Shown here: piece by piece, positions 6,743 through 51,300 of the stretch
Layout: the number at the start of each line of letters is the position of its first letter
Position numbering within the stretch: the first letter of the stretch is position 1
NCBI GenBank assembly: GCA_031213475.1
Contig: JARUPZ010000010.1
Location: 5,930,776-5,994,775 of the forward strand
Length of the DNA: 64,000 nucleotides
Direction: 5' to 3'
Source of the DNA: Nereocystis luetkeana
Lineage: Eukaryota > Sar > Phaeophyceae > Laminariales > Laminariaceae
The notes under the pieces: generated by a model
Database searches by the model: none
What the model was told of the DNA's origin: nothing
Seen by the model: the letters and a program-made list of their open reading frames with translations, nothing else
Program-made: the position numbers and the translations under genes

Positions 6743-7133
6743 TGATTGATCAACGTGGAAGCTCATGCTGCACATTGTCGGATGGCAAGCCTAATAAATT
6801 TGACAACAACAACAACAACAACAACAACAACAGCAACCACAACAACAACAACGGCAACAACAACAACAACAACAACAACAACAAGACATTTTTTTACATA
6901 CTACCTGGTACTTGGTAGTAGTTTTTCATTTCTTTCGTACTTCTCGTAACATTTGTAATTACTCTAATTTCAATATATAAAAACAAAGATCACAGCCAGC
7001 TGCTGATCATCAACACCAGCACATTGGGTGCTACTAAACAAAAGAACTAAATGTGGTGCGGAGCAATTTCATAATTTATTATTTCCCTGGCCATCCGACA
7101 ATGTGAAGCATGATCTTCAACATGGATCACTAA
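6743..7133. mobile_element. Non-autonomous element with about 52 bp terminal inverted repeats
   Basis: The left end (6743-6795) and the reverse complement of the right end (7082-7133) share GATCATGCTKCACATTGTC-like sequence and CGGATGGC followed by AATAAAT. The interior is about 290 bp with no coding capacity and holds a CAA microsatellite at 6808-6885. A single copy of the end sequence recurs at 18544-18605, so the family is dispersed. This fits a MITE-like DNA element; target duplications were not resolved. Confidence 0.55.
6808..6885 (+). repeat. CAA trinucleotide microsatellite
   Basis: Almost continuous CAA units with a few CAG, CCA and CGG interruptions, inside the element with inverted ends. 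Confidence 0.9.
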
Positions 7134-7397
7134 TAACATAATTTATCTCTTTTTTTTTTCAATCATCATTTTTTACTTTCCAGCCTAACTCGTACCTACC
7201 TGGTAGGAGGTTTTACCCTCAACGAGCTTCTGGACAAGCCGTGGTCACAGGTGTCTACCCTTCTCCCCCCCCGGTACGTGCCTTTAGTTTTCTCGCGCAT
7301 AGGGTTCAGCATTCCCACTGCTCGTCGATTTTCATCGAAAGTAGCTATCTCACGCTCTCGCGCTTGCCGCTAATCATTTTTTAATGCACGCAAAAAC

Positions 7398-7483
7398 TCC
7401 CACGAGCATGCGCTCGGTGAGACTTGAACCCACGGAATTGATCTTGATAGGCACGCGGACCACCTACCAAGCCACCGGGGACT
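7398..7483 (-). ncRNA. tRNA-derived sequence (possible SINE head)
   Basis: On the minus strand, GTCCCCGGTGGCTTGGTAGG resembles a pol III A box, and about 50 bases later GGGTTCAAGTCTCACC resembles a B box. The opening resembles the head of the SINE copies at 27983 and 35708. A full cloverleaf with a clear anticodon stem was not found, so a functional tRNA is unlikely. Confidence 0.35.
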
Positions 7484-7794
7484 ATAAATATTGAAACGAG
7501 GAAAATACGTCATCAGCTGTGAGTTCGACTGGTTAATTAAAAAGTTGACACAGGCAGTAAGTACTCAATTTTGCAAGCTGCGTAATACGCCTACCGTCCT
7601 ATATACGAGTATACGTATGTTATTCATAGTAGTATGGGAATTGTGCACACATTTTATGATAACGATATGTATTTATATACCAGGTAGGAATTACTACTGA
7701 ATTTTAGTACAACTCGAAAAATTCTTGATTAATTTCGTAATTCGTGTTGTGGGAAGAATGGATGGGAACAGACGACCACGAATGTATCTCGCAG

Positions 7795-8125
7795 GGGATG
7801 GGACGATAATTTCCACTAATTTCCAACGGGAGAGATTTTTCGGTGTCACGGCGGGACGGGGCGGTAATTTTTCGGTGTCATGGCGGGACGGGACGGTAAT
7901 TGTTCGATGTCACCGCGGGACGGGACGGTAATTTCCATTGGGAGAGATTTTATCGGCGGGACGGGACGGTAATTTCCATCGGGAGAAATTTTGTCGGCGG
8001 GACGGGACGGTAAGTGACGACGGTCAGGGAATTTGTCGGCGGGACGGGACGGCGGGACCATTTTGACGGTGGTTTTACCGTCCTGTCCCGTCCCGCCGTT
8101 ACCGCCGTTACCGTCCCGCCGAAAT
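7795..8125 (+). repeat. Second GGGACGGGACGG minisatellite
   Basis: About seven units carry GGCGGGACGGGACGGTAATT with spacers such as TTCCATCGGGAGA. Near 8080-8125 the same motif appears in reverse complement (ACCGTCCYGTCCCGTCCCGCC), so the array ends in an inverted repeat. Confidence 0.8.
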
Positions 8126-9306: not shown

Positions 9307-11597
9307 TCGAAGAAGCACACGTGTCAGGGGTGAGCGTCGGAAACAGGGTGTGTATGCTTCACGATTTTACCTGGGCAACTTCAATCAACAAAATGGTTGA
9401 CATGTTCTTGATTACAAAACCCCTACTACTATACTTAGTCCTAATTAAAATAAACCTCACCGACCCCTCCCCCCCCCATCGACCCCGCCTGGGAAAATGA
9501 TCGAAGCGAATGAAGCTGCTGTAGAGAGTGGGGTGGGCATTTGCGTACACTATCCGTCAACCGTTTTGGCGAAGCTGGTACATTCTTACGAAAACGCCGC
9601 GTACTACTACCAATACTACTACTACCACTACTATTATCACGGGGGGGGATAGTAATCAGAACCTAAGTTGGCGTGTAAACATAGGGGGATACAGGGTTAG
9701 GGCCTATCTTAACGGGGATTTGTTTTTTCTTCAATTTTTATTTTTTTTCTAATTTAATTTGCACCTGATTGGCCGAAGAAGAGTGAACGACCAAGCAGGC
9801 AAATTAAAAAAATTGAATTTGAGGTAAAAGTCTTTTGGGACTTTTCTCGTGTGATTTTTCGAATTCCAATTTGGAATTTGGGAGTTCCCCGGACTTGACG
9901 TAGCATGTTCATGGAGGGTCAACACCCTCGGTGGAGTCTGGGGCGATTCTAGGCCGCTTCGGCGACCACGATCGAGGCGATAAAACGCGAACCTCAACGA
10001 GAGGTGACCGGAGCAGTAGCCGCGCCCACGCCCACACACCATAGCACATCGTACCCCGGCGGTGGCGCCTCAAAAGTAATCATGGCGGCTGCAATCCCAA
10101 TTTTTCGGCCTGCTCGATCGGCCAACAATCGCAAAAAACGAGCAAAAGAGCAAAAAAACGGAGGATACGCTCGGGACCTCGATAGCTGCATCACCGCTGC
10201 TGTTCCGCACGTGGCGCTTGAGGGCTTCCTCCGCCCACCCAAGACACCCTGAGAGTGATAGGTTCCTATCCTGCGCGACCAAAAAGAAAAAGAGGTTGGC
10301 GGCGGCGCGCACGCGGAAGCGCAAACCTTCGCTCTCGTCTACGCGCGTCGCTGTTTGTCTGCTGGGCGTTGTGTGACGTGGCGCGTTCTTCCAGAAATAT
10401 GTTTTGATTGACAACTAGTACGCTGTTCCCCGATAGGACCCAAAAACGTTTTTTTTTCGAAATCAAATTGAAATTCATTGAAATTATTTTTTTACTTCCA
10501 TACAGCGTGCCCCGTTAAGATGGGCCCTTATAGGGTCCATCGTGGGTTATGTTTACTATCATACTGTAGCCTTTCGGAACACATGCCACCGTTTCACCCG
10601 AAAGCTCCAGTCTCGCCTATCTCTAACCCATTTATGTATTGGAAGTCAATACATTTTCTCAAATATTTATGTTGAATCTCTTTTTTTCTATATTTTTTCT
10701 TTCTTCTTATTTTTTTTCACGTCGTTCATACATGTTTTTTCGGCATTTATTTATTAACTTGCTTTTTCTTGTCGCTTCGTTTCTGTTTCCGTTTCTCCTT
10801 TTTTTTAGCGTAAATTATCCTTTTTTCCCGTTTCTCGTGTGTTGCTTCTGTTGTTGCTAGTTTCTCGTACTCGTACGATAAAAATAGCTCGGTGTTTTTC
10901 TTCGGTGTTCTCCCCTTTCGTTCTTCCTTTCTTTCTTTCTTTCTTTTTTATTCGTTTCTTTGATATGACCTATTTTGTTGGTTCATGGTTTTATATGTCC
11001 TTTCTTATTTCGTGCCCAACAGGCTTGCATCTCACTCGCGACACAATCTCCTGGTTCATTTTGTTTGCTTTTTGCCGTGTCTATTATTATGATGAGAACG
11101 GCAGTTGTATACCTGGTATACATTCGTTGTCTACATACCAGGTATTAAGAAAAAACACCAGTAGTACGAGCACGATGCAGACCCTGGGTTTTGAGGAGCA
11201 GCAATGAATGCTGGTGATGACGTGAAACACAGCTCACACGTCGAGACCGGAGGTTTGGTGCCTTGGCTCCCGAGGCAAGAGATTGGTCTTCATGAGAACG
11301 GCGAGGATGTAACCGCCAACAACTGGTACTCTTACAGGCCCACCTACATGCCGGTGCCAAGCGACGCCCGTGCTGGGCAGAGGTGTGCGGTGTTTGCCAA
11401 GCGCGTGCGAGGCCATCACCAAAACCTCTAGTGCTACCTACAGTTACTAGTAGTGCTTTGTCAATGTTGCGGTCCGGTGCGTTTGGTCCGAGGGTTGCTC
11501 GCGCGAGTGCCCGAACTGTTAGGTAGGGAGGAGGACTAGAATAAAACTTGAAAGCACATACACGTGGCAGACGCTACTTTAGTGTTGTGTTATTAAA
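9307..11597. other. AT-rich intergenic stretch
   Basis: No gene is supportable. The region contains T-rich tracts at 10670-10860 and 10920-10960, and ACTACTACTAC-type simple sequence at 9600-9640. Open frames at 10004-10252 and 11204-11431 have fairly ordinary codon use but no domain, splice support or second copy. Confidence 0.4.
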
Positions 11598-12261: not shown

Positions 12262-12580
12262 AGGTCGTGATCTAAATACTGTGGATAATCTAGATCACAA
12301 TCTAAATACTTTAGATAATCTAGATCACGATGTAAATACTTTAGATGATGATCCAAATACTCTAGATCATCTACATCATTTAGATCATAATCCAAATGCT
12401 CGAGATAATCTAGGCCATGATGTAAATACTTCAGATCATGATCTAAATACTCTATTATAGATCATCTACATCATCTAGATCACAATCTGAATACCTGGTA
12501 CTTTAGATAATCTATATCATGACGTACATACTTTAGATCACGATCTAAACACTCTAGATCAGCTACATCATCTAGACCAT
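12262..12580 (+). repeat. AGATC/AAATAC minisatellite
   Basis: About fifteen degenerate units of 18-24 bp combine AATCTAGATCA, GATGATCTA and AAATACTTTAGAT. The array is palindrome-rich because of TCTAGA and AGATCT-like words. Copy A has no counterpart at the same place. Confidence 0.8.
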
Positions 12581-13771: not shown

Positions 13772-14354
13772 GCCTCTCTTTTGCTCTCTCTCGTTTGCCC
13801 ATTCTTACATCGCCGGGCGCAATGGTGAACCCATCGCATGAGCCTGTCCTCATCGAGACTACTGCTCCCCGGTGGGGGCTGAACCTTGAAGCTGTGGTGG
13901 ACGCAGTGGCCCATTGTGTCTGTATCGCAGCCAGGGCGTTTTCAGCGTGGGTGCGGTGGTGCCGATACAAGAATAAAGCCAGTCCCATTCTGATGGCATG
14001 GTGGGTACTTCTGTGCTTTCTGGTAACGCCGTCCCACTACATGTCCCAAAATATAGTACACCGCTTGTATATTAACAGTGAACACAAATTGTCACTTGTG
14101 TTTCGGAAACACAGCGGCAGTCCGTTAGCCCGCGGGCGATGCTTACCGAGTTGCACGTACTCTGGGCAGGAAATGTATGGACCGCTTGGTCTTCCTATTT
14201 ATATCCGAATGGTCTTTGTATATCGCCCACAGTTGTACCAGGTATACAACAGTGGGGCCACGCTTAAGGAGAGGCGCGTTGTGTTTCAGGCCTGTGCGTT
14301 TCATCTCTCTTACAACCCGAACTTCGCACGTTACGTACACATATTAAATACTAC

Positions 14355-14465
14355 TATTACGGGGGACCATAGTAAACAGGACCTATGGTACACATAAAAA
14401 CCTATATATTTAACCATTTTTACTAACAATATTTGGTCCTGTTAACTATGGTCCCCCGTAATAAT
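14355..14465. mobile_element. MITE, CCCCCGTAATA family, copy 1
   Basis: The left end TATTACGGGGGACCATAG and the right end CTATGGTCCCCCGTAATA are inverted repeats, and the homology extends inward through AGGACC/GGTCCT. The interior is AT-rich with no ORF. It sits between conserved blocks of copy B and is absent from copy A, so it inserted after the duplication. Confidence 0.8.
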
Positions 14466-15149
14466 AGGAATCTGAAATGTATTTATTTCAGTGCGTAGCT
14501 ACTACTGCCGTATTATTGCTGGTACCAGGTAGTTCATACGAGCATGCCTCGATTCGCACTGAGCATCGTGTGTCGCCTACAAGTGGGAAAAAGGTTACGT
14601 GTCCCCCCCCCGTCCTCGATCAAGTTCGCCTTTTGTATAACAAAACCCGTTCGACGTTTTGACACTCTAAATTATCCCCCCCTTGGGTTAGAAGGTGCTC
14701 TATTGGCCGCATGGACTAACTGATATCCTCTGTTCGCCCCTCCCCCCCCTCCCGCCTCGTTGGATGTTTTCCGTAATCCCTTCTTATTTTGGGTTAAACA
14801 TCCGAATATGCTTTCGACGACACCCCCGGCACAGTCGCTGTCAGCACTACCAGAACCAACGGGACCGGCGGGACCAGGAAAAGTAAACGACGCGCAGGAA
14901 GTGGCGACAACCCCCGCCGTAGACAAGAAAAACAAGAAGAAGAGCAAGAAGAGGAAGGAGAGGGAGAAAGAGACAGGCTACGTGCCGCCGTCGCCCATCC
15001 GTGAGGCGGTCGCTGCCGTTCCGACGAAATCGGAGTGGGAAAGCTCGCCGCAAGGCCAAGCTCCGCAAGCGCCGGGACCGTGGCACCGGAGTGCACATCT
15101 CGGCTATGCGGTGCTAGGTGTTCGACACGCACGTCGCTTGGTGTAACGG

Positions 15150-15285: not shown

Positions 15286-15329
15286 TAGTGGTCAGACGGA
15301 CCGTACCGGCTGCTCAGGGAAGGGAGGGA

Positions 15330-16165: not shown

Positions 16166-16402
16166 AAAATACGCTGTATACCAACAGAAGGTTGTCGGCT
16201 AATTTTGTTGTTCTTTGTTCATGAAATAAAATGTTACGAGCTCGGACACCTGCGTGGTCTGCAATGAGTGAGCTGGTGGCGTAAAATAATGGCGGAGCCA
16301 CCTGTCACGACGTATTTGGTATACGCAAAACACCCAACATACCACATATTTGCGCACCCCCAAATGAAACGCATTCTCCAGCAGAAACACCGCCGCGTAA
16401 CC

Positions 16403-16512
16403 TACTACGGGGGACCATAGTAAATAGGACCTACGGTACAGACAAAACCTGCATATTTGCCTATTTTTTTAATCAATATTTCGTCCTATTTACTCTAGTT
16501 CCCCCGTAATAG
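16403..16512. mobile_element. MITE, CCCCCGTAATA family, copy 2
   Basis: Left end CTACGGGGGACCATAGTAAA, right end CTCTAGTTCCCCCGTAATAG, and interior GGACCTA to CGTCCTA as in copy 1. Confidence 0.75.
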
Positions 16513-18712: not shown

Positions 18713-19000
18713 TGATGCCGGTGATGCCGTCACAAGCAACAAATAACGGTAAAAAAAATTACGCATAAGAGTACAGAAGTACACCCGGTGTCTTCGTAAA
18801 CACAGATAGATGTCGAACTTCTTTCCGGAAGCTTCCTCAAACGGTAAGAGTATGAGGGCTGGACAAGTAAAATATTTGCCCCACCAGGTGCCAGCATATA
18901 CTATACAGTACGTATACAGCGCGGAGCATCCTTCAATAGTCCTCGCCTTTTCAAGCCGTTTCGTGCGTCCGTTGTCTTTCGAAGAAGTCCGTTCGTGTCC

Positions 19001-19122
19001 TATTTCGGGGGACCCAGAGCATACTAAATAGGACCTATTGTACACACAAAAAACTACCAGGTATATATTTCGCTATTTTTACCAACAATATTTGGTCCTG
19101 TTTACTATGCCCCCCCGTCATA
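19001..19122. mobile_element. MITE, CCCCCGTAATA family, copy 3
   Basis: TTTCGGGGGACCCAGAGCATACTAAATAGGACC-type left end (shortened word CGGGGGACCC) and right end GGTCCTGTTTACTATG with CCCCCCCGTCATAG. Unlike copies 1 and 4 it contains TACCAGGTA at 19055-19063. Confidence 0.7.
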
Positions 19123-21206
<2,084 letters not shown>

Positions 21207-21351
21207 GCAAAACAAGCAACACAAACAAGCAAGCAATCAAGCAAGCAAAACAAGCAGGCAAAACAAGCAAGCAATCAAGCAAACAAAACAAGCAGGCAAA
21301 ACAAGCAAGCAAAAGGAGCAGGCAAAACAAGCAAACAAAGCAAACAGCGCC

Positions 21352-22141: not shown

Positions 22142-25100
22142 TCAGGCCCACACCGCCGGACCTTGCCCGAACGCTTCGTCACCACCCCCGCCGCCGCCGC
22201 CGCCAAGCACATCCGCGTGAGGGTCCGCCCGCTGACGCTCCTCGTGCCCCAGCAACTTTCCCTCAAGCGCCGCCATCTTCTCCTCCAGCATCCTCACAAT
22301 GTCCGCCTCCGCCTCATCCCCGGATTCCTCGAACTCCTCATCTGACACCGCTGCCGACGACAGGCCGCTGACACCCCCACCCCCACCCCCACCCCCACCA
22401 GCGGTCGACAAATCCCTCCGCCCTTCGCCGCCCCACCTCTCCCGGACAGCCAGCGGGCGAGACTCCGGACCTGCCGCCCCATAGCCGTCACCCCCCCCGG
22501 TCACGTACTTGGTCCTCCCTCCCGACCCTCCCACCCCCACCCCCACACCCGCTCCCCCTTCCACCCCCCTCCCTCTCCCCCTTCCTTCTTCAGGCAAAGT
22601 CGCTCCAGCCGAGGCGGGCAGCGCTCGCGCCTGGCTGCCGGCGGAGGGGGGGGAGGAGTACGGGAGAAGACCCGCATTGCTGCCGCCTCCGCTAACGCCA
22701 CCACCGCTACCGCTACTGCTCGCACCGATGGCAGCCACAGGCGCGGCCTCAAGGGCCAGCCGCTTCCGGTCTTCCCTCTCCACCCTGGCGAAGCGTCGTT
22801 CGAGGTGGTCGATTCGGTCCAGGAGCCGCTTGACGCCCGACTTCAAGCGCTTCTCCATCGCAACGCGCGCCATCAGCCCCTCCCTGTCGATGGCCTCCAT
22901 TTCTGACCTCACGCTGCGCAAGGCCGCGTTCATCTCGTTCTGCGGTGTGTGTGTGCGTAAAGTTGGCGATTTTGGTGCCGGACGGTGCAGATGAAGGCAG
23001 CAAGAGCAAGACAGGGTGGGAGGGAGGGAGGGTGGGTGTCGCGGGAGGAGGGAAGGGAGGAGAGGAGAGGTGAGGCGCAGCGAGGGGGGGGGGGGGGAGG
23101 GGGTACTCGATGGGGGGGTGTAGTCGATCTCATGCATGGCCGTAGTCGTATGGCCATAGACCCTCGCATCCCTACAATGCCGGGACGAAGCACGTGAGGT
23201 TTTCACCGACCAGGCAGACATTGCTTGTACCAGGCGCGAAGCGAAACGCCAGGTGTTCGGCGAGTCGCATGAAGGGTGAGCTTCATCCTACTAATAACGA
23301 ACATCTGATTCCAAGTAATTTTCCCCGATGATCTCGCTCCAAGCAATTTAGCCCCAAAGATCTGATTCCAAGCAATTTTCCCCAAAGAAGTAGGTGTAGT
23401 GGTCAAGGCTTCACAGACCTGGCGCAGATGCTCGATTTCTCACCTCGCGATGGTCTGCAGTCGGGAGATTTACTTCAGGAATAGATTCTTGATCTGCATG
23501 GTTTTTTTAGCTCATGCGGCCGGGCGGGATTCGGATAGCTCGCATGATCTACCAACAGCACGTGCCGGTTGTTTCGGGTTTACACCTGCACTACTGCTGT
23601 ACCCATACATATCTTGTACACCATATCATAACTTTTTTTAGGACATTTACTACAGTAGAGTATCTACCTTAGATATATATATATAATATATATAGATAGA
23701 TAGATAGATAGATCGTGATCTGGTCTGATCCGATCCGATATGTCGGACACGCGTGAAAGTGTTGAAAGCCAAACAAGCGTAGGAAACAATACTGGACCTA
23801 TTTACAGAACACGAGAGCCGTGTACGTACACGACTTGCTGCGCTCAGCCTCGATAAGGGCGCTCAATTGTTTGTTACCTGGTACCTGGTAAATGAGATAT
23901 CAGTGAACGTACACTAATACCAGCAAGATAACATAGGAGCAATGCACCCCTGTTCGGGAAAGTGGGGTCCCCGAGACTCACAAGCAGGTATTTCCGTCTT
24001 TTTGCCGTGTTTATGCACTTTTTTACCGACGGAAACAAACCTAACCGACGGAGCGCCTCAACCGAGGACCTAAGCCCCTGACCGGCATAGTACCTATCTC
24101 ATTGGTGTCGCAAAAAACACATTTTTTTCATAGCACCTTAAGGCCATGGGACTAATGGTCGCCGGCTATATTCGGCCTACACATTTTCTCGAAGTCAGTT
24201 TCGAGTGACATGCAGCTAAAATAGTTTTGTTGCTCATCAAGAGAGGGGGCTCAGAAAAAAATGTTGCTATAAACTCGTACCCCCATCGCGGCACCCATCT
24301 CGAACTACAGCAGTGCAAGTTGACTCTGAACCTTAACTGCGACCGTAACCCCAACCGCCTATTTAGGAAGATTCTCGGAATGAAGCAGTAGTCAAGAGAG
24401 ATTGTGTGCACCAGCTATTCAACTAATATTTGTCGACCCTGTGGGCCGTTTATAGTTTATGTGTGTGTTCTTCACATTAAACCGTTCTTTCTACCCGTCG
24501 ACATCCAGCACAACCAGTGTCCGTGCCGATTCTCCAATCCTAGAAGAGATACAAGTTCTGTGGTAACAAAGCTACGCCACAGAGATACTACGTTGCCACG
24601 TACCAGGTATGCACTGCAGTGGGCAATGCACAGCCATGTCATCATACTATTACGGGGGACCATAGTTAATAGGACCAAATATTGTTAGTAAAAATGGTTA
24701 AATATATAGGATTTTATGTATACCATAGGTCCTATTAACTATGGTCCCCCGTAATAGATACGACAGGCAGAACATACACAATCTGTGAAATAGTGAAACG
24801 AAAAAAAACAACCGAAGAGAAAGCAAAAACACAGTAGACAAATCGAAAGAGAAAAAAAATGAAAGCAAAATCTAGGAGAAACAATCTGTCGTGCCCCCCC
24901 CCCCCCCGCAGGCGAGGTGGCCAACACTTGAAAAAGAACGAGCTGGAAAAAAGAAAAAAAATAACACAAACACCACTGCTTGTAAACAGAGTAAGACGAA
25001 GAACAAAGGAAAAATAACATGACGCAAGATAGAAGGGGCACGCCACGAGCACATAACGTTTTTTTTAGGCCGGGTATTTCCATACCACGCACGCATCGCT

Positions 25101-28100
25101 CGGCCTTTGCACTCCCTCCTTTGTTCGACAAAATAATCAGCTCGGAAATTCGCCCAAGGGATGCGTTACCTTTTGCGTGATGTACAGAAACCTTTCGTAG
25201 GACGCACAGACTGCAGCAGTATGCCACCATCGGCGCTCTCCACAGGCAAAATGTGTACTTTCGTCCAAAGTGCTTGGTACTCGGCGTACATACTCTGGGG
25301 GGAACCCAGGTGTATACTTCGGGGGGTACCCGGCCACATACTCTAGGGGTACCCGGGTAGATATTCTGGGGGGGACCTGGGTATCTAATCTGGAGGGTAC
25401 CCGGGCATATGCTCTGAAGGGCACCCGGGTATACCCTCCGAGGGGTACCCGGGTATATTCTCTGGGGGGGTACTCGGGTACATCCTCTGGGAGGTAGTCG
25501 GGTATATCCTCTGGGGGGTACCCGGGTTTATCATATATTCCGGGGGGTACCCGGTACCCGAGTAATACCAAAGAACTAGGTTCAATACCCGGGTAAAATA
25601 TCTCAGGGTACGCACCCTGCCGAAGGCACCCTTGCAACCGTCCCTCCGTTCCCGCCCACCCACCCAACCCAAGCCCAACGCCCCTCATAGGCGTACACCC
25701 TGCCTGCCTCCCTCCCTCCGTTGCGTATCGTATCGTACCTGCATCCTGATCTCAATCTTCTTGGTTTCTTTTTCCACCTCCTGGGCGACCAGAGGGCCTA
25801 GAATCCTTCCCGCCTCCGCTATCGTCACCATCTGCTGGCCGCTGCTGCCGCCGCCGCTGCCCCAGCGTGCAAGACAGAGACCGACCGAAGTAGCGACAGA
25901 GATAGAGGCGAAGAAGAATTAGTATAAACGAGCCAGGTAGGCATGGGTGAGGACGCCTTAGCCAAATAGTCGGCCACAGTCGCCACCGGGCCCCTCGAAA
26001 CTGTTTGAGGAGGGGGGGGGGGGGGGGGGGGGGGGGGGTGCCCGATATTCACCAACCAGACTATATACCATTCATAGGGACGCACCGTACTTGTGTACCG
26101 CAATACAGTACCGTAGAATATCACCGTACTCGTTTCATGCCGTATACCGTACCATCCTGTACCATATCAACTAATTGCATACCATGATGCCGTATATATG
26201 CCGTACCATACTGTAGAAACCACAACATACCATACCAGATCATGCGACACCATATTACACCATACTGCACCGTGCAATAACGACACCATATTACACGATA
26301 CCGTACCAGATCATACGAAACCATATTGCACCATACCGCACCGTGCAAAATTGACACCATATTACACCACACCGTACCGTGCGATTACGAAACCATATTA
26401 CACCACGCCGTACCGTGCAATACCATACCAAAATATCGAACCGTGGCGACGCGCTCAGAGAGCCGCGCAGCCACATCTACTACTGTAAATTCAACTACCT
26501 CTGTGAAAAACCGCACCTACAGCTACCATGGCATATGATATGATACGTACAATAGCTCTATTCCTTCAGCCACGTGCAGCTATTGATATTTACGCAAATA
26601 GCTCTAAAATTTCAGCTGCACCAAGAAAGGGCATCATTAGTATGTACTGTAGCATCACGTAGAAATACGTACAACAGTCGCATTAGTCATTGTATATTAA
26701 CTATGGTGGCTATGCCTGGTGTGGCGATTACCGACGCGGGCGACGGAAAGGCATTGCCGACGAGGATGCTGTTGACGGGACGGTCTGCGGAACAGTCTGC
26801 AGCAACTCGATTTTTTTTCCCAACCCGTAACTTATGAAATTGGAGAGAGTGGCCGGCGGCACGTGGTCCATTGGTCTATCATTCGATCAACCTATTAATC
26901 AATCTACCCGGTAAAAATCTATCCATATCAACCAATCAACCAACTGCCTACTATAGTTGATCCCCGAAACATTCTGTTCAGCGATGAGCCAGCCATACAG
27001 CTATCAACCTTCCAAACACGACAAGTCGTCTCGTTGCGTTCGTGTTCAACCAAACAATCAAGTACCCAACCAAACACAGGAACGCTCACCCCCCCCACCC
27101 CCTCCACCTCAAAAGGGATGCGTGATCAATGGTCAAAATAGTAAGGCAAGCAACACGTGAGTAAGCCTCCTACCTCACCCCACCCTGCTCCCCCATTCCA
27201 CGGATTTCATGTACGTACCTGACTTCCAGCGCCGTTTCGCGAGAGCCAGAGCGTGGTCTACGCTCGTCCGGGAGCGCGAGAGACGCCATCCCATCGGCCA
27301 ATTCCCGCTCCCCTGCAACCGTTCGCACACATGCAGAAATCGAAACCCCACTCATATATATATAAAAAGGCCAGTTATATTTCTAATACTCAAGACACGG
27401 TAAGGTAGGACAATACAAAATAATTCACATCGTTCGTATAAGCTATCGCTAAGAACTCGCACAACACGATGTTGTAACTGCCATTAACGTGCGTGTTGCC
27501 GGAAGGTATAAACCATGTGCCTCACGGGACATGGCCCGCCTGACCAGACCCCCCGGACCCGCTGGTCGAGTGGGGTCACCTTTTCCCGAACCGACCCGTA
27601 AGGTTCGACCCGATCCTTGAACAGCCCCCGGTAAAAACTAACGTAAACCATGCCTTTGGGTGAAAGTCAAAAGAACTGTACACAAAAAAAACATTATATC
27701 TCCATTTTTGGCACGGAGGCCGGTGGTGTTGGATGTCGAGGGGTAGAAAAGGCGGTTTATTGTGAAGATTACACTCACCGTGGATTGTTTAATCCCTTTG
27801 GGGCTTGAGACGGGGAAATTTTCGATAAAAAGTGACAATTACAGCGCAATGAAACGAACGGCGCGGGCGCAACACGACCCCGCCCGTACTGCTGGGTGCT
27901 CACGCTGCCCATAGACGGTTCAATGGTTGATAGCACCAGACTTACCAACCGTTGTTTTGATCGTTATCTTAAGGTCCCAAAAGCCGGTCGCCCCGGTGGT
28001 TCAAGTGGTTAACCTCGAATTCTACTTGTTTGAGTCCTGGGTTCGAGCTCCAGGTGGGTCGGACTTTGACTTTATTTGCAAAATAAAAAAAGATTCAATT

Positions 28101-34123: not shown

Positions 34124-37100
34124 ATGCACGCCTCGCGTCATCGTCACGACGTTATCCTTATATTATGGGCTGGAGTAGCCCTCTTGTCCTCTTCTGTGCT
34201 GGCGCTTGGTGATGGAGGAGGTCAGTCAGAACGCTACTGCTACTCTCGCACTCGTACGTACCTGGTACGACTGCTCTTGTCTTTTCGACTCACTGCTGTT
34301 CCGGTCTGCCGTCTATTCGTCAAAATGAATTAGCGGAGGGCCGCGTTGTTTGTGGGTCGCCGTCTATCGCCCACTACAGATGCTCTAGTGATAAGTGTAC
34401 CACGTGGCGTACGAGGCAGGAACCTAGTCATCCTGATAGCACGGTTACTCACTTCTGACACTCGTTGTCATGTGAGGCAAAGTGGCAAAGTGCGGATTCA
34501 GGCAGTTCGGCCCTTCTGCCTTCCTGGTGGTATGTCCTCACTTGTGTGATGTGATGTGATGTGCAGTACGAGTACGAGTACAAGTACGAGTGGCAGGCAC
34601 GAAGAGCAAGCAGAACGAGCAACGGCAGCGTCGGCAGCCGCGGATAAAGGAATAGCACAACAGCCGTAGGAATTACAGATTATTTGTAGTTGCACTTGAC
34701 ATTGGCACTTGCTACACAGCAGTTCGTCTTGCTTGGTCAGTTCAACAGCTGTTCAACTTTCGTACGATGACGTATCCCATCTACAGCTAATACATACGGA
34801 GTACTACTTGTTGTACACTATTAATTGATGCGCCCGCAGTAGTGCTTCGGTTACTGGTGTAACAGGCATGGAGCAGCAGCAGCAGCAGCAGCAGCACCAC
34901 CACCACCACCACCACTACCAAGCGCAGCACCACTATGGAATGACACATACGCATAATAGGTGGCAGCCGCAAGAAGCGTCGGCCTTACAAAACAGTATCG
35001 ATGTAAAAATGTACCTGGTACTGGTATGGTTTTATTATTTATAAAATAATATTAATAGTGCTCGTACGTACCTGGTACCTGGTATGATACAGCAGCAGTA
35101 TAAAAGTAGCGCCATGTTTCAAATGAATACGCGGCCGGAGGCGTCTACGAAAAGGTGTAAAGGTGGCAACTCTCGTCAGCTGGCCGCTGGCCCCCAACAT
35201 GTCGTCTACTTACTACTCATGAGTTACACAACAGACAGCAAAACAGCACGTATTGCACACTGCTATCATCAAACGAAACTGCGTACGTACGTACCTGGTA
35301 ATCAGTATACCAGGGCATACGGGTACTGACTAGAAGTTACATTGTTTTTTGTTTTGTTTTTTGTTTTGTTTTTTTTTACTCACCCATTTATTATCTTCGC
35401 GCATCTTCTTCTCTCTCTCCTTCCAACTCGTAACTCAGATCCGGGGTCACATAGCAGGCTCTTCTACCCCCTTCCCGCTACTGTACGTGCCTTCATTTTT
35501 ATCGCGAGAAGATTTCAGCCTTTTCTTCCCTCGTCGACTCGCATCGAATTGTGCCTACCCACGCTGCAAGGCGCTCTCAACAATTGAATCCTTTTGATTT
35601 TTATTTTTGCAAATAAAGTCAAATGTCCGACCCACCTGGGGCTCGAACCCAGGACTCAAACACAAGTAGAATTCGAGGTTAACCACTTGAACCACCGGGG
35701 CGACCGACTACATTTAGGTACCGGTATATACCGGGTACGTACATGCTACTCGTTCTTGGCATGTGGTCATACTCGTAGGGAATATCATACTGCTTGCAAG
35801 GAACAGAACACACCTGACAAACGCAGGTTCGCGGGATGCGTGGATGCCTTGGCGTGTCTTTGCTATGGTATGACGCACGACACGCTCCACAAGCGCTAAT
35901 GCTCTGATTGATCAGATAAATCTGTGAAAAGACTGACGCCACACGACCTGCTCATTGCATCTTCTCCCACCCGAAAAAAAGTCGATATAAATGGATATAG
36001 CAGGTGTACTGGTACAGCGTTACCGTTCCGCTCGTAAGTATCCTTGAGAGAAAACCTGCCTGAAAAATTGAAGAAATTAGGAAATCTTTCAGCCTCGTCA
36101 GTACCTACCTGGTAAGCTTTAAGAAAACAGGCCCGTTCCTGAGGCTGACCTGGCCCAAGGCGCCATCCTTTTTGCCTTACTCTCGATATATAGGGAAAAC
36201 ATCTTCGCGGGGACCACACTAGGAAGCGCATCATGAGAAAGTGAGCTTTCGCGAGCGCCCGGGATAAGAACGTCAGCCTGAGCCCGATTTTTTTTCGGGG
36301 CTCGTGTGAGAGGGGCGGTATTGCTGATGTGTCATACGTATAACACCGGGTGTCGGGTGTTCGTTGATGGTGCGTACTCGTATGTATGACGAGGTACGTA
36401 TTTGTCATGCTTTTGATATGTTGGATTTTTTGTATTGGCCTGTTTTATGCACACGTTCTCATCGTGATGGCGATTGACGGCAACCACCTTTACAGGCGAT
36501 GGCCGCGGCGATGGAGACTTTTCTAAGGGCTGGTCTGTAGACCACCTGCCGTCCCCGACCCTCGACCCGGTGGGATGCGGGCACCCGGGAAGGCTTCGCG
36601 ACGGGTCCTTCGTCTGCGACCCTGACGGTCTGCTCACGAAGCTCGGCGCAAGAAGGTAGGTTGATTGCAGCCAGCGTTAGTCGCTTTCATTCAGAGAGGG
36701 GGGGGGGGGGGGGGGGTCGAAATATGAGGATTATTCTAATACCTGAACATCGGCCACACGAAGCAACCCGGGTTTCAACGTAAGGAAGGATGCTCTGGGG
36801 CAGGGGATGTGTCCGAAGTGCTGTTGCACGCTCTTTCTAGGCGGTTGGTAAATAAGAGAAGACGGCACTACCGCCCTTGTCGGCTTTTAGATAGCTATGT
36901 CGGGATTGCTTAACCCCTTTAGAACCGCAGTCCCGTTTTGGGGACAAAACCCTCAAATTTCAAGTAGTTTGTCCCCAAAACGGGACAGCGGTTTTAAAGG
37001 GGTTACATCTTTTAGTGCTGCACTGTACATGTATATAAATCTGACTCTATTTCCAAGTGTTTTTATCCCAAAACGGAAGTGCGGTGCTAAAAGGGCCGAG

Positions 37101-41850: not shown

Positions 41851-43914
41851 TCGTAGATACCCGTTGGATTATGGACACATACCAAGTACGTAACGTTTCC
41901 GTCTTTTTCAGCATTGGCTGACTTGCGCGACCCTACTAGTCTTGCCGAGCTGAGGCGGCGACCGTGCAGATTCAGCCGCTGCTGATATTTTCTCAGCGAC
42001 TTTATGATGACAGTGGCGAGAAAAGTACAGAAGCGGGTGTTGACGTATGTGTCTGGGTTTTTTTTTTTTTTCAGTTTGACTTCAAGGTGACATGTTTTTT
42101 TTTTCGGAGTGGATGGAAAAGGGGGGGGGGGGAGGGGTGTGCTCATTATCATGTATGACCGTAGTCGGAATGGGGGGGGAGGGGGGGGGGGATTAGTTCC
42201 ATCATTTATGGAGATAATCGACCGTGCTCGTGTACGGTGTGTACAGGGCGCAACCATGCTTCGCGCACGGGGCGGACGGTTGTACGTTGGTACTCACAAA
42301 TAGCGAGGTTGAGCGTATAGACTCTGGGGAAGCTTTGTACATGGTATTTTTTTTTTTTGTATTCGGTGGGCGAATGTAGTAGTTGTTTGGGCACAATGCC
42401 TTCAGGTGCTGCGATCGGACCGGTGCTGAGGGTGTTCGCCGGGAAGCACCCGCAGGAGATAACGGATGGGGGTGACTGTGGTATATACGTGGTGAAATGA
42501 ACGCCGAAAAGCCTGCGTGCACCGGTCTGGGGCATATGCCCCCAAAACTTGAAAAAATAACGAGCGTGTGTACATACTGAAGTGGTGGTCCCCGTATAGT
42601 GGCGGCTGAGTACGGTATAGTGCCGGCTCCCCGCTTATAGTGCCTTGTGAAATCACTTGGCACAGATGGGATTATCCCGTGGGATTATCCCGTGTGGCGG
42701 TGTGCTATTAATAGTGCCGGGTGCCGGTATTCTAGTGCCGGTACTGTTGGCTGGCGCATACATGCCGGCACTGCAGAGGGGCCACTACACTGTATGTGTA
42801 CGTGCTGGTGTAATATACCAGGTATATAGTGGTCTCGCTCTTCGCCGTGGACGCGCGCCAGGATAGGGCATGCATGCCTTTGCCTTACAGCACTGCATCA
42901 CTTTTTTCGCTCGCCGATTTTCTAAATTTGACGGGCCTCCTCAACTCGATATCATCGGAATATCATTCTTGTTTTTGAATAAAATTGAAAAATGGATGCC
43001 TACCGTAGGCAGGGGACACAGGAAGAAGAGAAAACGGAGTCACACTCGCCTCCCTGTCGGAATTGAAATAGACCCCGTAGCGGGGGGTCGGGAGTTTTGT
43101 CAGAAGTTAAATAGAACATGTTTTTTTCGGTCTTATTTCACTTGATTTTAATATTGTAGTAGTGTCCCCCCCCCCCCCCCTCCCGTCTGGGGCTCAAAAA
43201 ACATAAGTGGAGTGTCGATTTTGTTTTTTTTTGTCGTGTATCCGTGACCTAGGTTAAGGGTTTGGCCATCGGGTTGCACGCTCATTTTTTTCTCAAGTTT
43301 AGTGCTTGGGTTAGGTCGAGGGCTCCTCAAGTTGGTAGAGCCTCATAAAAAGTAAGGTGTACCCCTTTACCGTAGTAGGCGTCCGTGCTCTTCCTAGACA
43401 GCTATCTTTACGGGTGGGCATATGTAGTAAGAATCGTAACCTACGATGGACCCAAAAACCACATATTCCCCCTATGTTAACCTACTGTAGCGCAATTGGT
43501 TCTGATTTGTTCCCTCGTAGTGGTGCCACGAGCGGGGTATGATCGCCTACAGGGCCATATATCTGGTTCTGACTATTAAATAGTGTGTACCCTCGAGGTA
43601 GTGCCAAGGGCCGAGTTTCGAAGAGGCGTGTTTTGTTTTCATTTTTTCGTGAGCTGTTGTAGGGTGTACAGCAGTGCGGCAGCCGTAAATCCGCCATGTA
43701 TGGCAAATTTCTTCAGAAGCGTGCCCGAATAAAATGACACTGCTGTTCTTGTATTGGGGGAGGGGTTTCGTCACGAAGCTGGAAGGGATTCCCCCCCCCC
43801 CCCCCGATATCGTAGTGAGATTATTTCCGGCTTCGGCTGACGGCGGGCACCACCCGGACCCGGAAGTCTAACCGGCGGCACTGCTGTACAGTGGGTGATC
43901 GTGTGACGCCGGCT
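41851..43914. other. intergenic, no gene
   Basis: No supportable gene. G runs at 42120-42135 and 42170-42190 flank a partial copy of the CTACGGCCATGCATGA repeat. At 43404-43520, GTAAGAATCGTAACC with GGTTCTGATTTGTTCC looks like a decayed member of the MITE subfamily at 44411. Confidence 0.4.
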
Positions 43915-44410: not shown

Positions 44411-44535
44411 GTAATACGGAGGGCCATAGTAATCAGAACCCCCCATACATATAAACACTTACCAGGTATATATTACAGTATTTTTACTACTGTACCAGGT
44501 AGGCGTTTTGGGTTTGATTACTATGTCCCCCGTAA
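44411..44535. mobile_element. MITE, CATAGTAATCAGAACC subfamily
   Basis: Left end GTAATACGGAGGGCCATAGT with AATCAGAACC, right end TTTGATTACTATGTCCCCCG. It carries TACCAGGTA twice (44460 and 44493), the first at the same internal place as in copy 3 at 19055. Confidence 0.65.
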
Positions 44536-44752: not shown

Positions 44753-45580
44753 GTGTAGTCCTCGCTACTTTACTCCTCTGTCAGCTCAATCCTCGCCGCT
44801 TTTTTCCTTAGATCGAATCAAGTAAAGACACATAACGCGAATAATAGGCGGATACCTGGTACATACTGTTTTACATGTCGGCGCTTACTTATCTCCCGTT
44901 CCATTTTGGTTCCTCTTCATTGCCTTAATCCTCGGCCTTCTAGCCCTCGCCGCGGTTGAGTTCTCTCGATACTGTACTCAAACCCCTCGATTCCTTGGCT
45001 ATTGTACTCCTTGCTGCTTTTAATTTAATGTCTACCAGGTAATCCTCACAGCTTTTGTCATCGACCGAATGTAGTCAAACACACCACACAAAAGGCGGAT
45101 ATAACTCTCTGTCCAGGAGCGTACGTAATCACTAAAGTACCCAAAATCCAACTACTTTACCTACATACCCATTATAAAGACCTGGCAGGGGGGGGGTGGT
45201 ATACTAAAACCAAGTAAACAAAATAAAAAACAAGAAACTCTTTTCGCACATTCGTCCAGAAATCCCATTCACCCCCCCCCCCCCCCCCCGGTTTGTTTTT
45301 CACGACCGGACGTATGATTTTTTTTTGCGAGAGCGTGGTGTCGTTTTTTTGTTTTTCGTCGTGTGCACCCCGGCATTTCTTCTTCGCTACCTTTACGTAC
45401 AACAGTCCTCGCTACTTCTGGTGCTCGCCATAGTTTTTAGTCCCCGCTACTTTATCTCTGGTCTGGCTGCTTTAAATTCTTGCCACTCTCCCCCTCGCCG
45501 CGTTACTTCTCGCTGCGTTACTCACTCCTCGATCGAATGGCTCAGGCAAAAGACACACGACACGTCAAGGCGAACATAGC
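44753..45580 (+). repeat. Diverged tandem repeats with CCTCGCTACTTT and AGGCGGATA
   Basis: Three units each run from CCTCGCYRCTT-type sequence through ATCGAAT to AAGACACA or CAAACACA, ending AGGCGGATA or AGGCGAACATA (ends near 44853, 45102 and 45580). Unit lengths are unequal because of insertions, including C runs at 45273-45290. Confidence 0.5.
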
Positions 45581-46610
45581 GTTGCGTTCGTCAATACCAG
45601 GTAGGCATGCCGAGCGTGCGGTGATTTTCGCGCGCCAGCATTTACCCACAATGGGTACGGATAACCTCGGCCTATACAAAACTACATATCGCTCCATATC
45701 CTGTTGCAAGATCACACTTAGCATAAACAACCTGACGACATAATAGTGTACCAGGTACAATATAGCGAGGCGTTTGGTTGTCCCCCCGGGGTGTTCCCCA
45801 GCTATCACCCCCTCCCCCCCCCCCCCCCCCCGCCCCCTCCCCCCGAAGACGAGCTTTAAAATGCTACTGCACGTGCACCGGCACACGAGCGCTTACTTCA
45901 CACACTCACGCAATCATATATGCTTCGGTTGGCCGTGTGCGCCCACAATAATACCGCACCTCCTGCCCGTTGAGCGTTCGGCAAGGCAACACCGTCGAAA
46001 GCGCGTCTGGCGCGAGAAGGCCGGAAACCAACCCCCTTCTCCCCGAGTCATTGACAGCTTCTTCTCTCTGCGACTCCGGGGCGAGGAATCAACATCCCCG
46101 GACAGAACGCTCTGGGAAGTCTGACGCATGGTACGCACGGTTGAAGAGTTCACCTACTGCTCCTGAGGGTTTACCAACAACGTGAGGTGGGAGCTCTGCT
46201 TCTGGACTAGGGTAAGTCCCCACCCGAAAATCGATGACATCAAAATAAACGGAAATCAAATATGTGACCGGTATGTGCAAAAAAAGATACAACCCTGTAC
46301 GAAAAAAAAACCCAAGGGCTGCTATGAATACGGATGTAGCGAATGACAATGATGAGTGAAAAATAAATAGAACACACCGTAAGGTTAGGGTATTGTTGGG
46401 CTACTGGTAAATATATCAACGAAGTATTTTTTACGGGCCCAACTAAGGCCTGTAACACAAGTAGGTTGGCCCCCTCATCAGCTAGAAACGATTGATCCCC
46501 CCCCCCCTCCGTCTCGATATTGTAGATTGTAAGGATGCGAGCGTCTATGGTCATGCGACTACGGCCATGCATGACATGAGTGATATGAGCACCCCCCCCC
46601 CCCATCCACC

Positions 46611-46880: not shown

Positions 46881-47721
46881 CAACCCCCTCCCCCCTCCCC
46901 CCTCCCGCCTCCCGCTACCGTACGTAGCACGGTTGCTTCGTCTATACGCTTGATGCATAGTGCACCCACACGCAATTTTTTGCTCGGGGAAAAACGTGCT
47001 ATTGGCACGAAACATATCTCCAAAACAGAGCAAGCCTATATATGGGAGGCGCGAGCCTCGGAAATCAGAATGAGAGGGGCTACTAAAGCTACCGCGAAAT
47101 GTGGCCTTTCTTACCGGGGAGCCGTCTGCACTCACACGCGATGCCCAAGCTCACGACAACACAAACGCCCTAAATGGCCTCGTGCCGGCGTTAACGACTA
47201 GCTCAACAGGAAATAGCCGAGACACAGCGTACGAAACTAAGCTGGTTCGAAGGTTTTCAACGTTTTATGGCGTTTTGGTTTTGCTCATCACGAAAACGGC
47301 GACATTTCGCTTGCAGCGAGAACCCCCCCCCCCCCCCCCGCCCCTCATTTCACGCCCTTTTTCTCACAAGAGACCGCCCTTGCGTTGCATGTGATAGCGG
47401 GGGTACGGAGCCGGGTGGTGCGCACCCCCTGCGTGGGGGTGTTCACCACTCACCACCGAAACGGTTCTTGTGCAACCGAAAAACGTCCTGCTGTTTCTCG
47501 CTGAACCCACTGCTGACAGACAGACAGACAGACAGACAGCCAATCAGTCAGAGAGTAAGGACTAAGAACGATAGACCAACGAGCAACACAGACACGCTAA
47601 ACGTAGACCCGTGTTTCATCACGCTCAGCCCAACAGGTTCGAACAGGCCTGGATGGTGTGCGACCTGACCGAAAAAATCCTAAACGCCTGCCCCCTCCGA
47701 GACCTCTAAACTAATGCGACG

Positions 47722-47945
47722 GTGTCATTCACGTGCAAGAAAGTCCGCCTCACACGCAGGCCTTGGACGGTTGCAGCTCAACCTCCATGCGACTCGCCGG
47801 ACACCTCACGCTGCTACGCGCTTGGTGCAAGCAATGTGTGCCTGGTCGGTGAAAACCCGACGTGCTCCGTCTCGGCATTGTAGGGATGTGAGAGTCTATA
47901 GCCATACACCTACGGCCATTCATTAGAGAAACATGAGTACTCCCC
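47722..47945 (+). repeat. Dispersed CTACGGCCATGCATGA repeat, copy 3
   Basis: Has CATGCGACTCGCCGGACACC, GCGCTTGGTGCAAGCAATGT, GGTCGGTGAAAACCCGACGT, GGCATTGTAGGGATGTGAGA and ends ACCTACGGCCATTCATTAGA then ATGAGTAC. Confidence 0.8.
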
Positions 47946-48312
47946 TCCGAGACCTCGCCCCTCCCTCCACCCCCCCCCGTCGACAAAAACGAAAACTATC
48001 AACACGCATATCATACGTAGCCCTTCTCTTCATATTTTATTCCGGCGACGTTGTTGTGTTGGCTGTCCACGCTCTATCCCCTGGTTGCCCACCCTATATC
48101 CATCCCTAGCTGTCCAGATCCCATAGTCCTATCTGCCCATCCCATGCCCCTATCTGTCCATTCCATATATGAAGCTGTCCCTCCCACACCTCTGCCCATT
48201 CCGTGTCCCTGTCGGTCTTTCTTATCTCCTCCGTTGCCCATCCCATAACTCTCGCTGCATCCATATCCCTAGCTACCCATCCAATACCCGTGGCTGTCCG
48301 TCCCGTACCTCC

Positions 48313-51300
48313 CTAGCTGTCCATCCCATACCCTGTCGACACAAACAGCCTCGCGAAGAACTTGTTCACGAACATGCCGTTCGGGTCCCATTTGGTGGCG
48401 ACGCTCTTCAGGAGCGGCAGGCGGCCCGCGAACGCACGCTGCAGCTTTTGGGTAGCGCCTACGATGTAGGCCTCGCTCCACTTGGCCCAGTGTGGCAACG
48501 CTGCGTCGGAACCGTCCTTTGGTGGTAATGTTGTACACAGGTTGATGCAACGTCGTCGGAGCAAGGGGGGCGTACCAGCCACATGAGTGAGCATGGTTCG
48601 CGAGGCGCGATCACCGATACACGTGGCCTTTGGCGAGTTAATAACTGTGAAGTATGTGCGTGAATCCGCGGTATATCGTGTTGCCTCGAGGGCGGAAGGT
48701 ATTGAACGTCTTGAATTACTGTGGTATATTAATTAATAAAAGTTTTGGCGTTGCATCGTAGATTTTTTCGAATGTGACAATCGGGAGCATTGCTGATTGT
48801 AACATCCCGCCGCTGCATTAACACGTACCAGGTATACAGTATGAAGCGCGTGTAAAGCGAGCCCCCCCCCCCCCCCCCCCCGCTCCCCCCCCTCGTCCAT
48901 TTTCAATGTATGGGATTAAGTGTGGAATTTAGTATGTCTGGGAACTGGCGCCACGCGTGTGGTTCCGACAAATACCAAGGTTACCCACGTCGGACAAGTC
49001 CGATAGATCGAATATATCAGGTACATCAGATATATATATATATATATATACCTGGTATATATATATTGTACATACCAGACATATCAGATATACCGGATAC
49101 ATCAGATAGATCATATAGACCAGAAATATCAGACAGACCAGATGAATAAGATATATCAGACATATGAGATAAGTCAGGTAGAGCAGATGGACGATCTAGA
49201 TATCCCAAAACCTGCCGTTGATGCATGTCGTGCAGCATGCGTACACCGTAGTACAAGGTCCAGCCCAGGAAACATGTCCTACATTAGATCAAGCAGATTA
49301 TACGGCTCCCGCCCGGCGGCAACAGGAGAGCTAGATCATACATACATTTCAGGAATCGATCTGCTCTCTGAAATACCTAGACCATGAAGTGGAATAGTTC
49401 TGTGGATGATCTATAGATGATCTGTAGATGATCTGTAGATTTCCTGCACGATGTGTTGGAGGTTGCTACACTGTACCCGGTACAACGGTGTACCAGTACC
49501 CATTTTAACACCACCCTGTGCCAAGCCCAATAGACCTGGTCTTATCTCTACTGACGTGGTTTTATCTTTTACTACTGAAAAAAGGATTCCGTGCTATTTT
49601 CGACTAGCTTTTTTTCTCGTGACAAAGCCGATTTTCCCTGGTCTTATTTATCTCCCGAATAATAGGCTTAAAACAATTGTTACCCCAACGTACTTGGTAT
49701 GTCCAGGGCTGTTCACGGGTCGGGTTAAATCTCGCGGGTCGGTCGGGTCGTGTCGGGTCGTGTCGGGTCGGGTCGAGTCGGGTCGGGTCGGGTCGGGTCG
49801 GGTAATGGTGACCGAAGCCGATCCGTGAGGATTTGAAAACCTCGTGACCCGATCAGATCCGACCCGACTCGACTCGTGAGATTTCAAAAACTTCCTCAAA
49901 CCGACTCGCGGGTTGGGATCTCATCACCCAGTGAGTGCCCTGCCTCTTTCGAAAAATGTTCAAAGCCCTTATCTTCACCGGAGCGCTAGTCGTTACCCTG
50001 ACCCTAACCTTAGCGGCATCCCTGCACCTATACCCTACCCACAGGGCTTTTGTACTTACGTGGTATGGGTGAACCCTTTCGTTTTTTTTGCAGTGTCGGC
50101 TATATACTGGTATTATTACGGGGTATAATAGTAAGTAGGACCACATATTGTTAGTAACAGTAGCGAAATATATAGGGTTTTTTGTGTGTACTGTAGGCCC
50201 TATTCAATATGGCCCCCCGTAATAGTTAACAGAGCATACCACGCCGGCCGATAATATAGTAAACGCTCTACATTTTCATTATTATAACACACAATAATAT
50301 CGATAGTAATAGCGGCCAGAGGGTGGCATCAATTTCCCATTCTTCTGAACCCTGCGTACAACCGCAGCAGATGCGTCTTGATAGGCTGCTAAAGAAAGGC
50401 TGATATACTAGGGTGGAAGTTGAGGCGTCGGCAAACTTAGATCGAATCGAGCGGAAGGAGAACTAGAGCTGCCGCCCCCCCGCTGTTGCCATGGTTGGTG
50501 GTGACTGTTCTCTTTGCGACGGTTGAGCTCTTGGCGCATTATAGTGTTGCTACAATTCTAATGTCCGGCCGATGTCCGAACTCCCCCCTGCTCTGGACTG
50601 CCAGAACGTAGTTTGCAAACTTTAAGAACGAGATAACGCAGCGCTGCACTACTGCTTCGTACGTTTACTCCTCTCTAGGCAAAACAGTGAGGTTATTCCC
50701 CTTCATATCGAAATCACCTACTACTCTTGCATTTCAATGCTGTGGAAAAACGACCACACGCCATATCCACCGAACCACACAAGTCCAAGTCGTGTCCTCT
50801 GAAACATACATGTATGGCTGGTTGCAACGTGTAGCGGTTTTGAAACCGTTGAAGACAAGACCTGCCACGCCGTTCAAAATATGCTTTCTGGCTGAACATT
50901 TAGCTGCTATACTGTGCAGATGATTAACCTCGGCGGGCGTGAGACGGGGCGTGTGCGTGTGCATCGTCTTTACATTACTTTCTACTCATCCCATCTAGGC
51001 GCCCACTTGAATTGTATATACAAATGATCGCCCCTTCGCTCACTTTCAGCTTGATGGCCAACCAAGCGTCGGCGACTTTGGTGTTGAAGTCCTTCAGTCG
51101 GGGAGTGCCGACGGCCGAAAGCACTTCGATCCACAGGAAGACGTCTCCCTGCCTCCACAAAAACGGGAGGAGAAGGAGGAGGAGCAGAATCATGAGAAGA
51201 AAGCGAGTTTTGATAACCACGGAACGAAGTGCCGAAAGCACGCATGGCGCGCACGCAACCTGCCTGCCGCACAACCCTATGGCCACGGTAATGGTGTAAA

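Follow-up and report, generated by a model that had tools for sequence, protein, structure and literature searches.

TACCWGGTA, a 9-base word spread through the genome of Nereocystis luetkeana, is probably the scar of a cut-and-paste element

Why does a single 9-base word, TACCWGGTA (where W is A or T), occur 29 times in a 64,000-nucleotide stretch of contig C10 of the brown alga Nereocystis luetkeana (JARUPZ010000010.1, positions 5,930,776 to 5,994,775; hereafter, the window)? Comparisons at 8 informative sites and within a family of repeats resembling miniature inverted-repeat transposable elements (MITEs) give good support to the view that the word arises by insertion of the 7 bases TACCWGG at a TA dinucleotide. 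We consider it probable (roughly 0.62) that TACCWGGTA is the excision scar of a TA-targeting, Tc1/mariner-like cut-and-paste element with CCAGG ends and 5-base overhangs.

Abundance of the word in the window and in the genome

The 29-copy observation is confirmed. Every start listed for the 9-mer in an original prediction, made from the window alone, was an exact match when compared directly with the window (29 of 29), with 14 copies reading TACCAGGTA and 15 reading TACCTGGTA. The expectation of about 0.5 copies given there also held, as a second-order Markov model yielded 0.52 for the word plus its complement, and models of orders 1 to 4 yielded 0.43-1.09. TACCWGGTA made up 29 of the 255 TA-N5-TA occurrences in the window, where the runner-up word occurred 7 times. 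Outside the nine positions, no base was fixed among the 29 copies, which implies that they are not fragments of some longer repeat. The copies cluster (11 gaps of <300 bases compared to 4.1 expected), and the three stretches of the window that had been named as copy-free indeed contained zero exact copies each; the window's neighbours hold 5 copies in the 10 kb directly before it and 2 in the 10 kb directly after it. None of the 29 copies lies within the 9 stop-to-stop open reading frames (ORFs) of at least 250 codons, which cover 7,248 bases (chance, 0.03). The copies, and the MITE-like repeats that lack the word, are as follows.

6902..6910, minus strand, TACCWGGTA copy (exact match)
7197..7205, minus strand, TACCWGGTA copy; repeat partners about 11 bases shorter (net 11 in 3 of 4, 10 in one)
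7678..7686, plus strand, TACCWGGTA copy (exact match)
11110..11118, minus strand, TACCWGGTA copy (exact match)
11136..11144, plus strand, TACCWGGTA copy (exact match)
12492..12500, minus strand, TACCWGGTA copy, clean gain of 7 at a TA in the tandem repeat 12288-12576; unit 12285-12368 lacks exactly TACCTGG
14236..14244, plus strand, TACCWGGTA copy (exact match)
14354..14465, plus strand, MITE-like palindromic repeat without the word, the empty reference (repeat comparison)
14523..14531, plus strand, TACCWGGTA copy (exact match)
16402..16511, plus strand, MITE-like repeat copy without the word (repeat comparison)
19055..19063, plus strand, TACCWGGTA copy, gain of 7 at a TA in MITE-like copy 19000-19122 (repeat comparison)
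19571..19579, plus strand, TACCWGGTA copy (exact match)
23875..23890, minus strand, overlapping TACCWGGTA pair TACCTGGTACCTGGTA, starts 23875 and 23882 (exact match)
24601..24609, plus strand, TACCWGGTA copy, an exception; net gap 0 in 3 of 4 repeat partners
24648..24757, minus strand, MITE-like repeat copy without the word (repeat comparison)
32868..32876, minus strand, TACCWGGTA copy (exact match)
34259..34267, minus strand, TACCWGGTA copy (exact match)
35012..35020, minus strand, TACCWGGTA copy (exact match)
35069..35084, minus strand, overlapping TACCWGGTA pair TACCTGGTACCTGGTA, starts 35069 and 35076 (exact match)
35292..35300, minus strand, TACCWGGTA copy (exact match)
36106..36114, minus strand, TACCWGGTA copy (exact match)
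42816..42824, plus strand, TACCWGGTA copy (exact match)
44460..44468, plus strand, TACCWGGTA copy in MITE-like copy 44412-44535, sitting at the TA that 19055 also occupies (repeat comparison)
44493..44501, plus strand, second TACCWGGTA copy in MITE-like copy 44412-44535, within an 11-base excess (repeat comparison)
44853..44861, minus strand, TACCWGGTA copy (exact match)
45033..45041, plus strand, TACCWGGTA copy (exact match)
45595..45603, plus strand, TACCWGGTA copy (exact match)
45749..45757, plus strand, TACCWGGTA copy (exact match)
48826..48834, plus strand, TACCWGGTA copy (exact match)
49049..49057, minus strand, TACCWGGTA copy (exact match)
50112..50225, minus strand, MITE-like repeat copy without the word (repeat comparison)

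One of the two outcomes that would have refuted the prediction, a lack of enrichment across the genome, did not occur: in the whole assembly of 465,085,209 bases, TACCWGGTA occurs 182,395 times and the reversed control word 1,744 times, a 105-fold difference. We also sampled 20 regions of 10 kb each (L139-L158), two of which adjoin the window and five more of which lie on its contig. The word was present in 20 of 20 regions (74 copies compared to 1.95 expected), and counts per region were mildly overdispersed (mean 3.7, variance 4.9). Window and sampled regions together make 264 kb, including 2,500 masked bases; counts below refer to these 264 kb unless another scope is given, and the prefix W marks window positions. 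They contain 103 copies compared to 2.46 expected, so that about one in six CCWGG sites (103 of 616) belongs to TACCWGGTA. The centre base is W in 103 cases and S (C or G) in 15. As a separate observation, TACCCGGTA is itself 5.8-fold in excess (15 compared to 2.6).

Evidence for a 7-base insertion at TA

For each copy, a similar stretch free of the word was sought in the 264 kb, in the outside contigs L121 and L122, and in the first 3.64 kb of the outside contig L123, and a partner was counted as usable if the 20 bases flanking the site to left and right were each at least 70% identical. Ninety-eight copies from the window, the sampled regions, and L123 passed the complexity filter, and 8 of these were informative (7 in this genome and 1 in L123). 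Net extra bases at these 8 copies, taking the commonest value for each, were 7, 7, 7, 11, 8, 5, 0, and -4, giving a gain of 5-11 bases in 6 of 8 and of exactly 7 in 3 of 8 in comparisons between repeat copies, not alleles. The controls were 901 other TA-N5-TA words that had at least two mismatches to the word and did not adjoin a copy. Among the 161 informative controls, exactly 7 extra bases were found in none and at least 5 were found in 5 (Fisher test of copies and controls, 7e-5 and 4e-7, respectively). In an earlier run that kept one-mismatch words among the controls, 7 extra bases were found in 4 of 155, of which 3 were one-mismatch words and 1 adjoined a real copy. Taken by themselves, 13 of 104 one-mismatch versions were informative, with a net gain of exactly 7 in 4 (2 with a split gap), of 0 in 6, and of other values in 3.

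The clearest cases of insertion are 12492, in a tandem repeat, and L123:2762, in a MITE-like copy. Substitutions aside, the tandem-repeat unit at 12285 matches the unit at 12492 minus TACCTGG. The MITE-like family is palindromic, has the ends CTATTACGGGGGACC, and numbers 31 copies (24 in the 264 kb and 7 in outside contigs). The word is missing from 26 of these and present in 5, namely W19000, W44412 (twice), L149:6293, L153:93 (with one mismatch), and L123:2675. A comparison of the copies at 14355 and 19001 had led the original prediction to 7 bases added at a TA, which proved correct. The same TA of the repeat holds the word in both orientations, with an A centre in 2 copies and a T centre in 2, which suggests that at least two events occurred there. 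Origin of the word by substitution at unchanged length does not fit 6 of the 8 informative sites, with 24601 as an exception.

The target is strongly constrained. Of 306 TACCWGG occurrences, 206 run on into TA, compared to 9.5% of CCWGG sites whose two preceding bases both differ from TA, and CCAGG lies between identical dinucleotides 103 times for TA and 8 times for AC, the next in rank. The word shares with Tc1/mariner footprints its insertion at a TA and the TA retained on either side. Bias in the flanks is symmetric and reads R Y A Y N A T outward from the TA (101 sites compared to 14,130 TA sites). When clustered and simple-repeat sites were removed, the 70 isolated sites retained it at positions 6 and 7 (p 9e-12 and 8e-10) and at positions 1-4 (p 2e-3 to 5e-5), with no significant position beyond 10; position 4 favours T, and position 7 favours T or A. 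The outward R Y A of these 70 sites corresponds to a palindromic, AT-rich target preference (ATATATAT). The ultra-short insertion with TA duplication that the original prediction proposed thus draws support from repeat copies that have or lack the 7 bases, from the MITE-like family, and from the tandem repeat, as well as from the requirement for a TA at each end and the palindromic target preference.

One-mismatch versions are also in excess, with 47 transitions compared to 17.0 expected and 52 transversions compared to 34.3. They partly keep the flank bias, with A at position 6 at a frequency of 0.40, compared to 0.51 around exact copies and about 0.25 around background TA sites. Assuming neutral decay, this excess (48), spread across 103 intact copies with eight positions each, amounts to about 6% change per base, implying that insertion went on over some time and that most copies are not ancient. 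The word moreover forms arrays. Genome-wide, the pair TACCWGGTACCWGGTA occurs 15,917 times (control, 2) and the triple 1,689 times (control, 0), such that pairs amount to 8.7% of the single words and triples to 10.6% of the pairs; if targets were picked at random among about 25.9 million TA sites, about 1,284 pairs would be expected. Among the matches listed, centres are mixed in 35 of 50 triples (three of which overlap another listed triple) and in 19 of 59 pairs, with same-centre pairs in excess (40 of 59). Because centres are mixed, tandem duplication is not the sole source of the arrays. In the same 50 triples, an A-centred unit precedes a T-centred one more often than the reverse (28 compared to 13 steps), and the 59 pairs have 14 A-then-T and 5 T-then-A orders.

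Outside this genome, the end of the MITE-like repeat was found in three stretches of other genome contigs, all from bacterial bins (L121-L123), and in none of the viral contigs. A paired-word scan of viral contigs gave at least 120 stretches, which were ranked by word density and of which the best 25 were viewed; L100 has 15 copies of the word in 13 kb. Positions 1-3640 of L123 (JALZWD010000061.1) contain the word 3 times and several of the window's repeat families, and beyond about 3.6 kb its ORFs look bacterial by eye. L123 therefore appears to be chimeric, L121 and L122 also carry the MITE-like repeat, and the three bins seem to hold host (algal) DNA. Taken whole, the bins show no clear excess of the word over the reversed word (23 and 14, 2 and 5, and 5 and 8 copies, respectively), and 3 of the 5 copies in the third bin lie in L123. 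The available text of a study of bull-kelp bacteria gives 39-50% host DNA in whole-tissue assemblies and names Flavimaricola, with Saprospiraceae and Phycisphaera also counted (PMC9238374). Size and repeat content by themselves mark the genome of the window as eukaryotic, and the bins and this study suggest a brown alga, perhaps a kelp; if so, the word would also be present in independently sampled algal DNA.

An excision scar and its alternatives

An excision scar would form as follows. The element inserts at a TA, which is duplicated. On excision, the transposase would cut about 5 bases inside the element, leaving both flanks ending in ...TACCAGG-3'. These 3' overhangs would pair CC with GG and GG with CC around one central A-A or T-T mismatch, as the CAG overhangs of Sleeping Beauty pair with a central mismatch, and would then be sealed. 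Resolution of the mismatch to A or T would convert TA to TACCWGGTA with a net gain of 7, so that CCAGG at both ends and a 5-base stagger would yield TACCAGGTA or TACCTGGTA by the Sleeping Beauty route. The element would re-insert elsewhere, and scars could serve as new targets, giving arrays. Even a small number of resident elements could account for many scars, since a scar can be left at every jump. Support for this reading comes from the gain of 7 bases, the TA target, the symmetry of the target preference, a centre that is mostly W, the transition bias of decay, and the arrays; from it we infer a transposase as the maker, the 5-base stagger, the mismatch step, and a low copy number of the source.

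Several results weigh against an excision scar. Only 8 sites are informative, all of them comparisons of repeat copies and not of alleles. At 24601 the partners are equal in length and the difference is due to substitutions; L151:9110 has a net value of -4 in a poor alignment; and W7197 (+11), L151:3808 (+8), and L149:6350 (+5) gained numbers other than 7. A looser run, in which 30 of 102 copies had a partner of some kind, produced gaps of various sizes, many of them in weak or low-complexity alignments. TACCWGG without a following TA occurs 99 times compared to 68 expected; 53 of these are one base from the full word, and the remaining 46 are half sites that are not singly decayed scars and lack the target signature.

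The source is the other difficulty. The example named in the original prediction, a Tc1/mariner-type element with CCWGG ends, remains the best fit, but the 264 kb (of 465,085 kb) yielded no such element, and the searches described below no transposase. Pairs of the word aside, no TA-flanked terminal repeats up to 6 kb apart begin with CCWGG in the 264 kb, in a scan that is blind to elements exceeding 6 kb or extending past the edge of a 10-kb region. Pfam searches of the genome, which read it exon by exon with few candidates scored, gave 0 matches to DDE_3 (PF13358; 30 candidates scored) and 0 to Transposase_1 (PF01359), whose control was also silent everywhere; both are weak negatives. Finally, Tc1/mariner footprints are reported as 2-4 bases in the available text of PMC7913693, a residue length that the 5 bases between the TAs do not match. 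In the part available of a study of rice DNA-transposon excisions covering several superfamilies, products were heterogeneous and 8 of 94 were perfect (PMC4423477). By these accounts a uniform 5-base scar is unusual, and because of its length we file the word as footprint-like and not as a proven member of Tc1/mariner.

The absence of a parent element from the 264 kb, together with the almost uniform product and the similar frequency of each further array unit (9-11%; 182,395, 15,917, and 1,689), is what direct micro-insertion would lead one to expect. Here an enzyme would write TACCWGG directly at TA sites without a complete element at any time, the agent being a stray transposase complex with terminal bases only or a nuclease plus polymerase. 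We consider this unlikely, although it is the foremost of the alternatives, since the TA target, the target symmetry, and the W-centred palindrome are all as in a transposon scar of the usual kind, parents in low copy number would go unseen in a sample of 264 kb, and, to our knowledge, no enzyme of this kind has been described. Slightly more doubtful is a self-spreading 7-base insertion, in which TA-targeting machinery without a resident element would re-target its own product at a roughly constant rate; this would account for the share of CCWGG sites, about one in six (103 of 616), that belong to the word.

A putative regulatory or chromatin protein binding site, kept by selection or, as the original prediction also considered, spread by insertion, would explain the strict 9-base word, the flanks that extend its palindrome, the longest ORFs being free of it, and the substitutions that distinguish 24601 from its partners. 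We regard this as improbable given the length gain at 6 of 8 informative copies, the transition bias of one-mismatch copies, of which 4 of 13 show the same gain, and the presence of 182,395 copies, found in 20 of 20 sampled regions. Still less probable is that the word is what is left of a palindromic MITE, formerly abundant, that lost its interior after inserting and kept just the ends. The word is an imperfect palindrome between TAs and MITE-like repeats are plentiful here, but interior deletion should yield many sizes, and all but two TACCWGG-N(0-12)-CCWGGTA forms in the 264 kb were either TA-sharing arrays or complete words lying side by side. Nothing was found in favour of chance, local repeats, or an artefact of assembly, which can be set aside almost entirely in view of the 105-fold genome-wide excess over the control, the lack of longer shared sequence around the copies, and the 3 copies in the 3.6-kb algal-looking part of L123, which belongs to a separate data set.

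A further candidate was rejected. TACWGTA was considered as a second scar family and is 2.7-fold in excess in the 264 kb (103 compared to 37.8), but a 5-base gain was found in 0 of 9 informative cases (104 sites). A presumed 5-base insertion of this family, at 35479 relative to 28202, proved on alignment to be a C/A substitution. A group of three CCAGG half sites sits in a longer repeat, because 2 of the 3 copies have common upstream sequence. The window also contains an inverted repeat pair (28080-28318 and 35364-35602; 239 bases, 94% alike, 7 kb apart), of which L123 has a further copy, and an array of about 144 AAGC units (585 bases, 20728-21312).

Implications and comparison with known systems

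No description of TACCWGGTA was found in the open-library literature on footprints and brown algae, and the word "footprint" has 0 occurrences in the available text of an Ectocarpus transposon paper (PMC12477816). The two 9-mers appear in 217 papers; judged by their titles, those among the matches listed were taken for chance hits in printed sequences. If the copies are scars, they would form a countable record of past jumps in one genome, 182,395 plus the decayed ones. Decay would date the jumps, and the flanks would reveal the target preference, of an element with few or no resident copies left. The number of jumps would then be measurable apart from copy number, and excision alone could seed a genome with a palindromic CCWGG word. 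A uniform 5-base scar would call for a repair route cleaner than that behind the mixed footprints of rice. If no element exists, we know of no precedent for the mutational process.

Like MITEs, the word has TA-type targets and a high copy number; unlike MITEs, among which it does not qualify, the TACCWGG unit has only 7 bases and lacks terminal inverted repeats and an interior. The terminal repeat of Mos1-type mariners starts with CCAGG, the terminal bases proposed here; these mariners cut near 3 bases, and no such transposase was found here in the weak PF01359 search. The footprints of Stowaway and Osmar5, a plant mariner, are likewise short terminal-repeat remnants between TA duplications, but theirs are varied, with 1-4 bases per side, whereas here there is almost one product. 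Re-insertion at the TA of an earlier footprint has been described for them in the part available of PMC1925063.

In Tc1/mariner excision generally, the cut in the second strand falls a few bases within the element, and the resulting 3' overhangs become the footprint (PMC8151067, as far as its text was available), and the consensus footprints given for Sleeping Beauty are TACAGTA and TACTGTA (PMC4378557, likewise). The word differs from these in having CCWGG (5 bases) in place of CWG (3 bases), in its 182,395 copies in one genome, in a preference that reaches bases 6-7, and in that its parent was not found in the 264 kb. It resembles them in having TA on both sides, a short odd palindrome with an A/T centre, a palindromic AT-rich target preference, and a net gain equal to the overhang plus one TA. 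In the available text of PMC7913693, the Tc1/mariner element ZB is reported to prefer ATATATAT, which the innermost part of the flank preference of the word resembles.

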